The translations under genes were made by a program, and so were the position numbers. From Stackebrandtia nassauensis DSM 44728 (GTDB lineage Bacteria; Actinomycetota; Actinomycetes; Mycobacteriales; Micromonosporaceae), in NCBI RefSeq assembly GCF_000024545.1, contig NC_013947.1, positions 62,001 to 126,000 of the forward strand: a stretch of DNA of 64,000 nucleotides, given 5' to 3'. Under the pieces are notes generated by a model. That model was not told the DNA's origin. It worked only from the letters and a program-made list of their open reading frames with translations, and ran no database searches. Shown piece by piece: positions 37,630-41,580 of the stretch (the stretch's first letter is position 1; the number at the start of each line of letters is the position of its first letter).

Positions 37630-37781
37630 GATTGTGCCGATCCAGTCCTGTAGTCAGCGGGTACCGGTCGCATCAAACACTAGATCCGTGGCGCTTGTGC
37701 CTCAACGCGGGATTGCTCACACCGCGAAACCGTCACATCCGCGGCGGAATAGCTGCGCGGATCGCGGGGATTGACCCGGGT

Positions 37782-38633
37782 ATGTGGAACAGCGAGCAAC
37801 TCGACCTCGACGCCTACCTCACCCGCGTCGGCCACGACGGCGACCGGACGCCGACACTGGCGACGCTGCGGGCCCTGCAACGCGCGCACGTGCTGAACCT
37901 GCGCTGGGACACCATCGACAGTTTCCTTTACCGCGAGGTCCGCCTCGACCTCGCGGCGATCCAGGACAAGCTGCTGCGCCGGGGCCGGGGCGGCTACTGC
38001 TACGAGCACACCGTGCTGTTCGCCGCCGTGCTGGAGAAACTCGGGTTCCGCTTCACCGCCGTGTCCGCGCGGGTGCAGCTGGGCGCCGACTCCACCACGC
38101 CCCGCCCGGCCACCCACGCGATGCTGATCGTCGACCTGGACGGGAAACGCTGGCTGTCCGATGTCGGTTTCGGGTCCAGCCCGTTGGAGCCCATCGAGCT
38201 GGTCGACGGTGGCCGCGGCGACTCCGGCCCGTGGCCGTACCTGCTGCGCTGGCAGGACATCACCCACGGTTCGCCGGGCTGGGCCGTGCACCAGCGCGGC
38301 GACGGCCCCGAGGGACCGGAAGGCTGGACGGTGCGGCAGGTCTTCACCGAGACGCCGCAGTACCCGATCGACTACGTCCTCGGCAACCACTTCGTGGCCA
38401 GCAACGACCGCTCGCCGTTCGTTACCCGCCCGTACATCCAGCGGCTGCGCACCGACCGCTACGACACGCTCGACGCGCTCACCTGGACGACCGAGCGTCC
38501 GGGGCAGGACGCGGTGTCCGAGACCGTGCGGCCGCACGAGGTGCCGAAGCTGCTCGACGACGTCTTCGACATCCGCGTCGACGCCGCCGAGGCCCGGTTG
38601 CTCGTCGACAGGCTGACGGAACGGGAAGCCTGA
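37782..38633 (+). CDS. nat: Arylamine N-acetyltransferase
   Basis: A 283-residue NAT that moves acetyl from acetyl-CoA to arylamines or hydrazines. The catalytic triad is visible: Cys in GRGGYCYEHTVLF (about residue 70), His in PATHAMLIVDL and Asp in LSDVGFGSSPLEP. The start MWNSEQLDLDAYL at 37782 fits the family; upstream sequence is not coding. A second NAT follows after 44 bp. Confidence 0.93.
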   Translation: MWNSEQLDLDAYLTRVGHDGDRTPTLATLRALQRAHVLNLRWDTIDSFLYREVRLDLAAIQDKLLRRGRGGYCYEHTVLFAAVLEKLGFRFTAVSARVQLGADSTTPRPATHAMLIVDLDGKRWLSDVGFGSSPLEPIELVDGGRGDSGPWPYLLRWQDITHGSPGWAVHQRGDGPEGPEGWTVRQVFTETPQYPIDYVLGNHFVASNDRSPFVTRPYIQRLRTDRYDTLDALTWTTERPGQDAVSETVRPHEVPKLLDDVFDIRVDAAEARLLVDRLTEREA

Positions 38634-38677
38634 CAGCTCACGATCTTCACGACGACGGCGAACGGTAGCCTTCGGCA

Positions 38678-39448
38678 ATGTCAGTCGACGTAGACGCGTA
38701 CCTGAAGCGCATCGGCGTGACCACCCCGGTTTCCGTCACCGCCGAGAGCCTTCGCACCCTGCACCTCAATCACCTGCGCACCATTCCGTTCGAGAACCTG
38801 AGCATCCACCTGGGCGAGACGATCAGCCTCGACGAGGCGCCGCTGCTGGACAAGGTGGTGACCCGAAGCCGCGGCGGTTTCTGTTACGAACTCAACGGCG
38901 CCTTCGCCTGGCTGCTGCGGGAACTGGGCTACACGGTGACGCTGCTGTCGGCCCGGGTCTTCGCCGGCGACAACCCCGGCCCGCCCTTCGACCACCTGGC
39001 GCTCAAGGTCGACCTGGACGAGCCGTGGCTGGCCGATGTCGGTTTCGGCGCCTTCGCCAGCCATCCGCTGCGGCTCAACGATCGCGGCGACCAGACCGAC
39101 CCGGCGGGCACCTTCCGCATCGCCGACGCCGAACACGGCGACCTGATCGTGTACGAGAACGGCGAACCCCAGTACCGCTTCGAGGCGCACCCGCGCGAGT
39201 TGGCCGAGTTCGAGGCGATGTGCTGGTACCAGCAGAACTCGCCCAAGTCGCACTTCACGAAGTCGCCGGTGTGCTCGCGGCTGACCGACACCGGCCGCGT
39301 CACCCTCACCGGCCGGACCCTCAAACGGCTCGCGGACGGCGAGACCACCAAGACCACCCTGAAGGTCGAGGCCGAGATCCTGGCGACCTACCGTGACCTG
39401 TTCGGCGTCACCCTCGACCGGCTCCCCGACGATCCGCGCGAAGCGTGA
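38678..39448 (+). CDS. nat: Arylamine N-acetyltransferase (second paralogue)
   Basis: A 256-residue NAT with triad residues in SRGGFCYELNGAFAW (Cys), PPFDHLALKVDL (His) and LADVGFGAFASHPL (Asp). It is clearly diverged from the neighbouring paralogue, so this is an old tandem duplication or separate acquisition. In some actinomycetes NAT-like enzymes close amide bonds in antibiotic synthesis, but no such cluster is seen here. The methyltransferase gene starts 6 bp after its stop. Confidence 0.93.
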   Translation: MSVDVDAYLKRIGVTTPVSVTAESLRTLHLNHLRTIPFENLSIHLGETISLDEAPLLDKVVTRSRGGFCYELNGAFAWLLRELGYTVTLLSARVFAGDNPGPPFDHLALKVDLDEPWLADVGFGAFASHPLRLNDRGDQTDPAGTFRIADAEHGDLIVYENGEPQYRFEAHPRELAEFEAMCWYQQNSPKSHFTKSPVCSRLTDTGRVTLTGRTLKRLADGETTKTTLKVEAEILATYRDLFGVTLDRLPDDPREA

Positions 39449-39454
39449 GCGCCG

Positions 39455-40390
39455 GTGCTGCCCTGGTCACAGGCGATGCGCCGGGCCCTTTACGGGCCCG
39501 GCGGCTTCTACACGCTCAACAGCCCCAACCGGCACTTCCGCACCAGCGCGCAGTTCCCGCTGTTCGCGACGGCGATCGCCGAACTGGTGCGCCGCACCGA
39601 CTCCCGGCTCGACCACCCCGAGGTGTTCAACCTCGTCGACGTCGGAGCCGGCTCGGGTGAACTGCTGCGGCGGGTGCTGGACGAAGAGGACCTGAACGGC
39701 AGGCTGCGTCCGGTCGCGGTGGAGCTGCGTCCCGCGCCGCCCGGGCTGGACGAGCGGATCGAGTGGCGGACAAGCCTTCCCGGCGGCATCATCGGTCTGC
39801 TGATGGCGTGCGAGTACCTGGACAACATGCCGCTGGACATCGCCGTCGCCGACGCGGCGGGCGCGGTCCGCTACGAACTCGTCGACCCTGGCAGCGGCGA
39901 GACCCGGCCCGGCCAGCCGGTGTCGAGCGTGGACGCCGACTGGCTGCGGGCCTGGTGGCCGCTCGGGCAGGCCGGTCAGCGCGCCGAGATCGGCCGCTCG
40001 CGCGACCAGGAATGGGCCCGGTTGTGCGGCAATGTTTCACGTGGAACAGTCGTGGCAGTAGACTATGGACACACGAAGGACTGCCGGCCCCCGCTGGGAA
40101 CCGTCACCGGCTTCCTCGACGGCCACCAGGTCGCCCCGGTCCCCGACGGCACCCGCGACATCACCGCCCACGTCGCCATGGACTCGCTCGGCGACGGCGG
40201 ACTGTGGACACAACGCGACGCCTTGCGGGAACTGGGAATCAGCGGCAGCCGTCCGCCGCTGGAACTGTCCCGCACCAACCCGGCCGAGTACATCAGGGCG
40301 CTGAGCCGCGCCGGGGACGCGGCCGAACTGACCGACCCCGCGGGCCTGGGCGCCCACCACTGGCTGGTCCTCAACCTGACGCAACGCTGA
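39455..40390 (+). CDS. MidA/NDUFAF7-family SAM-dependent methyltransferase
   Basis: A 311-residue methyltransferase of the COG1565/DUF185 group. The SAM motif is [17 protein letters not shown], with preceding [21 protein letters not shown] typical of the group (usually YY..NP..F). Further signatures are [12 protein letters not shown] and [13 protein letters not shown]. Eukaryotic NDUFAF7 dimethylates an arginine of complex I subunit NDUFS2 and is needed for complex I assembly. The next gene here encodes the bacterial NDUFS2 homologue NuoD. GTG 39455 is the start; ATG 39476 is an alternative. Confidence 0.85.
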
Positions 40391-40443
40391 CCGGCACGCA
40401 CCGCGCCCGGCGGCGGCGCGGCGGTCGTGCCACGATAAACACC

Positions 40444-41580
40444 ATGACCGAGATGACGGTAGGTGTCGGCTCCGGCGTCGGCGAGTTCGCCGACATGGTG
40501 CTCAACATCGGTCCCCAGCACCCGTCCACTCACGGCGTCCTGCGGCTCAAGCTCACCCTCGACGGTGAGCGCGTCACCGGCTGCGAACCCGTCGTCGGCT
40601 ACATGCACCGCGGCGCCGAGAAACTGTTCGAGGTGCGCGACTACCGCCAGATCCTGATGCTCGCCAACCGGCACGACTGGCTGTCGGCCTTCTGCTCCGA
40701 ACTCGGCGTCGCACTGGCCGTGGAACGGCTCATGGGCATCGAGGTCCCCGAACGCGCCGTGTGGCTGCGCACCGCGCTGGCCGAACTCAACCGCGTCCTC
40801 AACCACCTGATGTTCCTGGGTTCCTACCCGCTGGAGATCGGGGCGATCACGCCGATGTTCTACGCGTTCCGGGAACGCGAGACGCTGCAGGCGGTGTTCG
40901 AGGAGGCCAGCGGCGGCCGGATGCACTACATGTTCAACCGGATCGGCGGGCTCAAGGAGGAGGTGCCCTCCGGCTGGACCTCGCGGGCCCGGCAGGCCAT
41001 CGGCGAGGTGCGCCGGGGAATGTCCGATGTCGACGACATCATCCGGACCAACGAGATCTTCGCCGCCCGCACCAAGGGCGTCGGTGTCCTGTCCGCCGAG
41101 ACCGCCGCCGCCTACGGCGTCTCCGGACCGGTGGCCCGCGCCTCCGGCCTCGACTTCGACCTGCGCCGCGACGAGCCCTACCTCGCCTATGGCGAGCTCG
41201 ACGTCCCCGTCGTCACCCGCACCGCCGGTGACTGTCACGCCCGCTTCGGCTGCCTGCTCGACCAGGTCTACGTCTCGCTCGACCTGGCCGAGAAGTGCCT
41301 CAACCGGGTGGACGCGATCGGCGGCCCCGTCAACGTCCGGCTGCCCAAAGTGGTCAAAGCCCCCGAGGGCGCGACCTACGCCTGGACCGAGAACCCGTTG
41401 GGCGTCAACGGTTACTACCTGGTCTCGCGCGGCGAGAAGACCCCGTGGCGGCTCAAGCTGCGCACCGCGTCCTACGCGAACGTGCAGGCGCTGTCGACGC
41501 TGCTGGTGGGCTGTCTGGTGCCCGACCTGGTGGCGATCCTGGGCTCGATGTTCTTCGTCGTGGGTGACATCGACAAATAG
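40444..41580 (+). CDS. nuoD: NADH-quinone oxidoreductase subunit D (stand-alone copy)
   Basis: A 378-residue 49-kDa-subunit homologue. Quinone-site and N2-neighbouring segments are present: [21 protein letters not shown] (quoted in part), [19 protein letters not shown] and [14 protein letters not shown]. The protein is shorter than typical operon-encoded actinobacterial NuoD (about 430-440), lacking an N-terminal extension. No other nuo genes are in the window, so this is an orphan copy as also known in some actinomycetes. It lies 53 bp after the MidA-type methyltransferase. Confidence 0.92.

Follow-up and report, generated by a model that had tools for sequence, protein, structure and literature searches.

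The gene at positions 39455-40390 of the window (the whole stretch of 64,000 nucleotides analysed here, bases 62001-126000 of one contig, 6,841,557 bases long) would encode a methyltransferase dedicated to Arg56 of NuoD2, the product of the next gene, and would serve as an assembly factor of a second, 11-subunit complex I. From the analyses below, we give this reading a probability of about 0.78. The adjacency of the two genes is not its best support: stronger are the order of the genes in distantly related lineages, the joint occurrence of enzyme and NuoD2, and an Arg/Thr switch present within one genome.

Results

A MidA-type methyltransferase gene next to nuoD2

The gene is on the forward strand, has a GTG start and encodes 311 residues. 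By sequence and fold its product is a member of the MidA/NDUFAF7 family (PF02636, COG1565) of SAM-dependent methyltransferases, as an earlier note on this DNA had proposed. PF02636 was the sole Pfam match (53.5 bits, for a cut-off of 23.3), and no NCBIfam model matched. The AlphaFold model of the protein has a mean pLDDT of 94.9. When it was compared with the PDB, the top six matches were all MidA-family entries (4g67, 4f3n, chains A and B of 1zkd, and 5ztz and 5zu0, which are Dictyostelium MidA), with E values from 2×10−20 to 4×10−18, against 5×10−5 for the next match. TM scores with the solved MidA structures ranged from 0.76 to 0.81 over the query, for 14-23% identity, meaning that the relation is remote. 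In a 20-row alignment, V61-D62, A65-G66, G68, L70-L71, E120, D123, P126, D203-Y204, H206, D235 and T237-V240 were invariant, as were all letters named in the motifs VDxxAGxGxLL, ExLDxxP, DYxH and DxTAHV. We take these to be the SAM-binding motif and the other core motifs, presumably with a catalytic role.

A gap of 53 bp (40391-40443) separates the stop codon of the methyltransferase from the start of a NuoD gene on the same strand (40444-41580, ATG start, 378 residues, 100% match to P0002), a neighbour already seen in the earlier note. The protein matched Pfam PF00346 with 242 bits (cut-off 24) and NCBIfam PRK06075 with 377 (cut-off 360), and fell below the cut-offs of two NuoD models, TIGR01962 (388 versus 459) and PRK12322 (392 versus 522). 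Passing the first NCBIfam model and missing the two others, it is a divergent NuoD, which we call NuoD2.

NuoD2 does keep the 11-residue segment ([11 protein letters not shown]) to which the note had drawn attention. Its Arg56 (codon CGC, 40609-40611), in an HRG motif, aligned with the Arg in LLHRGTEK of the 49-kDa subunits. This position is that of Arg85 of mature NDUFS2, because the peptide given in PMC3829151 comprises residues 75-85, and Arg56 is thus the candidate methylation site. Arg56, His30 and Trp79 correspond to Thr64, His38 and Tyr87 of Thermus Nqo4 (numbers of PMC5552823), shifted by 8. The quinone-site His is therefore retained as His30, and the quinone-binding Tyr is replaced by Trp79 (codon TGG, 40678-40680). 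Judged on these residues, NuoD2 is to be classed as a homologue of NuoD whose quinone site is altered, and not as an ordinary NuoD.

The second complex I is encoded in four places

NuoD2 had been described as an orphan copy. This turned out to be incorrect, as the genome holds another NuoD (NuoD1) in a full main nuo operon at 1.35 Mb, and ten further subunits of a second complex elsewhere in the chromosome. The proposal that this copy belongs to an alternative complex was, on the other hand, borne out. A nuoA2-nuoB2-DUF2252-nuoC2-nuoH2 cluster is present at 6.326-6.330 Mb, nuoI2-nuoJ2 at 6.310-6.311 Mb, and nuoK2-L2-M2-N2 at 0.991-0.996 Mb. Together with nuoD2, all 11 subunits of the Q and P modules (A2, B2, C2, D2, H2, I2, J2, K2, L2, M2 and N2) are encoded at four chromosomal places, all of them as open stretches, and with the ten other subunits encoded in the genome we rejected the idea that NuoD2 is a lone relic. 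A2, B2, C2, H2, K2, L2 and N2 were called by Pfam, J2 by PF00499, M2 by PF00361 together with a tblastn search using NuoM1, and I2 by tblastn with NuoI1 (33% identity, 74 bits) and its 4Fe-4S domains. No nuoE, nuoF or nuoG was found in the stretches that hold the second-complex genes (L072, L073, L081, L164 and the window).

Two side observations concern this gene set. The DUF2252 gene (PF10009, 366 bits) lies between nuoB2 and nuoC2, at 8981-10291 of L072. One member of the family, G006, has a NuoB2 (L275), and neither NuoD2 nor the methyltransferase was found in its assembly of 810 contigs, which may reflect a gap or a joint loss.

Both states of the arginine switch are present in one genome

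In Thermus, the Arg near cluster N2 is carried by Nqo6 (Arg83), and Nqo4 has Thr64; in mitochondria, it is the NuoD homologue that has the Arg and the NuoB homologue that has the Thr. Both side chains occupy the same space (PMC8042128, PMC5552823). In the genome studied here, the main complex is of the Thermus type, with HTG in NuoD1 and AGRVSQK in NuoB1, and the second complex is of the mitochondrial type, with HRG in NuoD2 and SGTVTDK in NuoB2. Only NuoD2, of the two NuoD proteins, carries the candidate target Arg. This means that both states of the switch are encoded in the same cell, and that the methyltransferase goes with the Arg-on-NuoD state.

The pattern extends beyond this genome. 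The Arg of NuoD2 was found in 28/28 relatives, in 68/68 of the named loci (from the best 80 of 509) and in 55/55 genomes of a phylum sample, three overlapping sets, and the Trp at the place of the quinone Tyr gave the same counts in the same sets. In the NuoD of the main operon, Tyr occupies the quinone position, and Thr replaced the Arg in all 23 relatives read. The NuoB proteins were the mirror image, with Thr in 27/27 NuoB2 and Arg in 23/23 NuoB1. Eight nuo2 sets of distant genomes had Thr on NuoB too (L203 gave no NuoB motif match).

The methyltransferase-NuoD2 neighbourhood in close relatives

We then considered 41 genomes, 40 relatives and the genome of the window. Enzyme and NuoD2 were both present in 27 and both missing in 11; one had NuoD2 alone (G032, on a contig of 3.3 kb), while two had only a weak or partial match to the enzyme (G008, 69% complete, and G029, at a contig end). 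The two genes were at most 300 bp apart in 18 of the 27 genomes having both, as counted from coordinates. Among the named methyltransferase loci (the best 80 of 509), NuoD2 was within 10 kb in 68, and within 300 bp in 42 of these. The adjacency is therefore found outside this genome. Of these 42 close pairs, 20 were on the same strand and 22 convergent, so that the latter are not co-transcribed. Of the 12 loci among the 80 with no NuoD2 nearby, 3 have less than 3 kb of downstream sequence and 7 are from Glycomyces. In G014, NuoD2 lies 46 kb from the methyltransferase.

As a control, the other neighbours, assigned to families by Pfam, were counted within 10 kb in those 66 loci (from the same best 80 of 509) whose flanks were complete. 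PanC was found in 61, DUF2520 in 62 and NuoD2 in 58. Proximity in close relatives thus reflects a conserved block, and we rejected it as decisive evidence; in this respect the adjacency is weaker than the earlier note had taken it to be, panC and DUF2520 being equally frequent near the methyltransferase.

The control also covered two successive N-acetyltransferase genes (PF00797, 158 and 227 bits) located immediately upstream of the methyltransferase in the window (37632-39448, forward strand). Each of them was near the methyltransferase in only 1 of the 66 loci, so this pair looks like a local insertion.

Gene order and co-occurrence in distant Actinomycetota

The phylum sample consisted of 149 genomes, from which 14 loci were picked, either because of their layout or because they were unusual. 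Six of these loci, L194 and L196-L200, showed the order nuoA2-B2-C2-D2-H2-I2-J2-K2-L2-M2-N2-midA, all on one strand. The match ends of nuoN2 and midA were 55 to 331 bp apart there, and the nuo2 sets contained no nuoE, nuoF or nuoG. The distance from nuoN2 was 111 bp in G138. In total, midA directly follows nuoN2 in seven genomes belonging to three families (f35, f41 and f56). Other arrangements were also found: midA was 6.7 kb (G083) and 12 kb (G149) away on the same strand, 43 bp from NuoD2 between match ends and convergent (G120), or 787 bp from it and divergent (G061).

The enzyme was detected by the A1 profile in 40 of the 149 genomes, and scanning 25 selected genomes with PF02636 added 3, giving 43. 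The A1 profile could thus not be kept as a complete detector, since PF02636 found the enzyme in three (G169, G046 and G174) of 19 NuoD2-bearing genomes that were negative with A1. The residues were read in 98 genomes, of which 55 have a Trp-type NuoD2 and 28 a NuoD of the Arg type but not of the Trp type; in the other 15 the NuoD read is of the Thr type, and none of these has a Trp-type copy. The remaining 51 were unread at the site (18 lacked any NuoD match) and were counted as not Trp-type; A1 found the enzyme in none of them.

The enzyme was present in 39 of the 55 genomes with a Trp-type NuoD2, versus at least 4 of the 94 others, a lower bound, with G128 the sole genome of this group retested by PF02636 (Fisher's p about 2×10−18, not to be taken literally, as the genomes are related). 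In the 28 Arg-type genomes, where the quinone position is Tyr in 27 and unread in G081, three had the enzyme (G058, G069 and G073), and the 25 others gave no match to the A1 profile. In the Thr-type group the enzyme was present in 1 of 15 (G128). We conclude from 39/55, 3/28 and 1/15 that the enzyme tracks the Trp-type NuoD2, and not the Arg as such. The 16 Trp-type genomes negative for the enzyme by both A1 and PF02636 all keep the Arg, as do the 25 other enzyme-negative genomes. The Arg therefore does not require the enzyme, and we rejected the view that it depends on it.

G128 (L207, L208 and L215) is a case apart, with two PF02636 proteins, NuoD of the Thr type only and NuoB of the Arg type. 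The family probably has another substrate in this genome.

Outside the phylum, PF02636 was searched in a control set of 14 genomes. One match each was found in Caulobacter, Synechococcus and Haloferax, and none in E. coli. Cyanobacteria and haloarchaea have been described with forms of complex I that lack the N module (PMC12361115), so that the enzyme may accompany such complexes more widely.

The quinone site, and a Phe two residues after the Arg

The Arg has been proposed to stabilise the quinone-binding Tyr, which is Tyr87 in Thermus and Tyr108 in cattle (PMC5552823). In every NuoD2 read this Tyr is Trp. NuoB2 differs at a further place: the Arg of the FRASPRQ segment is missing in 27/27 NuoB2 (L282 being poorly aligned there) and retained in 21/23 NuoB1. 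By position this residue appears to be Arg77 of bovine PSST, which is hydroxylated (PMC3750175). The Tyr to Trp change in NuoD2 and the loss of this Arg in NuoB2 suggest that the second complex probably handles its acceptor differently.

Among the Trp-type NuoD2, residue 58, two after the Arg (40615-40617 in the window), was Phe in 15 of the 16 enzyme-free genomes versus 1 of the 39 enzyme-bearing ones. On a tree of 59 sequences (without G149, with five Tyr-type rows and with the column of the trait retained), Phe changed three times, and comparison of three independent pairs placed the absence of the enzyme with Phe in 2.9 of the 3, as a mean over 200 pairings. We do not regard the correlation as established, since a p of 0.05 is out of reach with three independent pairs and the tree included the column of the trait itself. 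Of 21 further Arg-type NuoD with no enzyme match, 8 had Phe, 9 Gln and 4 other residues at that place, so that Phe is no general substitute. These 21 sequences (L306-L325 and L327) mostly read HRC or HRS instead of HRG. A speculative proposal, which we regard as rather doubtful, is that in the second complex the Arg works without the quinone Tyr, which is Trp throughout, that its methylation serves the NuoD-NuoB joint and N2 and has no part in quinone chemistry, and that the enzyme-free Trp lineages swapped the methyl groups for a Phe (HR[GAS]FEK). We rate it slightly lower because Gln or another residue is frequent at that place in enzyme-free Arg-type NuoD of the Tyr kind.

Discussion

The substrate of the methyltransferase would most likely be Arg56 of the NuoD2 encoded beside it. 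NuoD2 is the subunit of the N2 cluster and quinone site in an 11-subunit complex, which, in the stretches examined, comes with no second NADH module. By analogy with NDUFAF7 and NDUFS2, Arg56 would be dimethylated, probably in the symmetric form, before or while NuoD2 meets NuoB2, early in assembly, and the modification may help to keep these two subunits joined and to shape the environment of cluster N2. The analogy is drawn from NDUFAF7, whose knockdown lowers the methylation of NDUFS2 Arg85 and is accompanied by the disappearance of an early intermediate containing NDUFS2 (PMC3829151, PMC8042128). Assembly is affected both when the enzyme is missing and when the Arg is mutated, and Arg mutants lose cluster N2 (PMC8042128). 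The main complex I would need no such enzyme, since there the Arg belongs to NuoB and NuoD carries Thr. What the sequences and the predicted structure show are the protein families, the fold, the residues, the sets of genes and the co-occurrence; the methylation, its symmetric dimethyl form, its timing and its effect are proposed on that basis.

The enzyme might act on another substrate, its place next to nuoD2 being merely part of a conserved panC-DUF2520-midA-nuoD2 block. The neighbour counts in close relatives (61, 62 and 58 of the 66 loci) are what this would predict, and G128, with its two PF02636 proteins and no Arg-type NuoD, shows that such a case may exist. We nevertheless find this unlikely for the gene of the window, given that three other families include seven genomes in which it comes directly after the nuoN2 of a second nuo set, that enzyme and NuoD2 co-occur, and that the known substrate of NDUFAF7 is the same Arg (PMC3829151). 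Another alternative is an assembly chaperone of NuoD2 that has lost methylation. Arg-type NuoD occurs with no enzyme in 16/55 Trp-type genomes, the Arg is unmodified in E. coli complex I (PMC3750175), and complex I of the Yarrowia R121M/K mutants is still partly assembled (PMC8042128). Yet the SAM-binding motif and the other core motifs, superfluous for a pure chaperone, are conserved in all 20 rows of the alignment, which makes this option quite improbable.

It is, to us, very hard to believe that this genome carries NuoD2 and the other dispersed subunits of its complex as mere remnants undergoing decay. Genes split over four places, with the DUF2252 gene between nuoB2 and nuoC2, could be the mark of such a decay, but all 11 subunits are open, NuoD2 is 74-91% identical, over almost all of its length, in those other members of the family which possess it, and NuoB2 84-92% identical. 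Moreover, a Streptomyces study interprets its data as nuo2 being expressed in one operon (PMC3765725). The reading that we retain is thus that of a NuoD2 Arg56 methyltransferase and assembly factor.

With human NDUFAF7 and the MidA of Dictyostelium and proteobacteria, the protein shares PF02636, the fold, and a NuoD partner with the Arg of an HRG motif. Unlike in those systems, its gene stands beside that of the likely substrate and goes, in the stretches examined, with a complex devoid of NADH module, and just one of the two NuoD proteins of the genome has the Arg. Streptomyces has a second nuo set with nuoA2, nuoB2 and nuoH2-N2, and with nuoD2 located away from them (PMC3765725, PMC8388888); one such cluster is described without N module. 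Like it, the set found here is an extra one, shows no N module in the stretches examined and has its nuoD2 apart. It differs in being further split, over four places, and in including NuoC2, and the excerpts consulted on Streptomyces nuo2 do not mention the methyltransferase. The 11-subunit complex I-like enzymes of Desulfitobacterium and others also combine Q and P modules without NADH module, and their electron donor is not settled (PMC11238625); here, in contrast, the genome also holds a complete operon for 14 subunits, Trp takes the place of the quinone Tyr, and a methyltransferase gene goes with the set. Finally, the placement of Arg on NuoB and Thr on NuoD, or the reverse, is that of the Thermus/mitochondria switch, which is described between organisms, whereas both states are found here in one genome, with the methyltransferase going with one of them.

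A bacterial MidA has reportedly been described already (Cell Reports, 2018). The nuo2 sets and the arginine switch are also known, and so is the methylation of bacterial NuoD: the earlier note had suggested it from the gene pair, and it is not new, as NuoD of Paracoccus denitrificans is methylated at the same residue (PMC3750175). In the literature searched, no paper linked MidA to nuo2 or to actinobacteria, no assembly factor was named for the nuo2 complex, and a term search of a survey that compared complex I variants across genomes (PMC12361115) gave no mention of MidA or NDUFAF7. As far as this literature goes, the actinobacterial MidA-NuoD2 pairing and the presence of both switch states in one genome are new.

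An organism with two complexes, one with the Arg on NuoD and the other with the swapped Thr/Arg pair, would permit the role of Arg dimethylation at the N2 site to be studied by deletion of the enzyme, the main complex being the internal control. In addition, the nuo2 complex of Streptomyces and its relatives, which has received little study, gains a candidate assembly factor.
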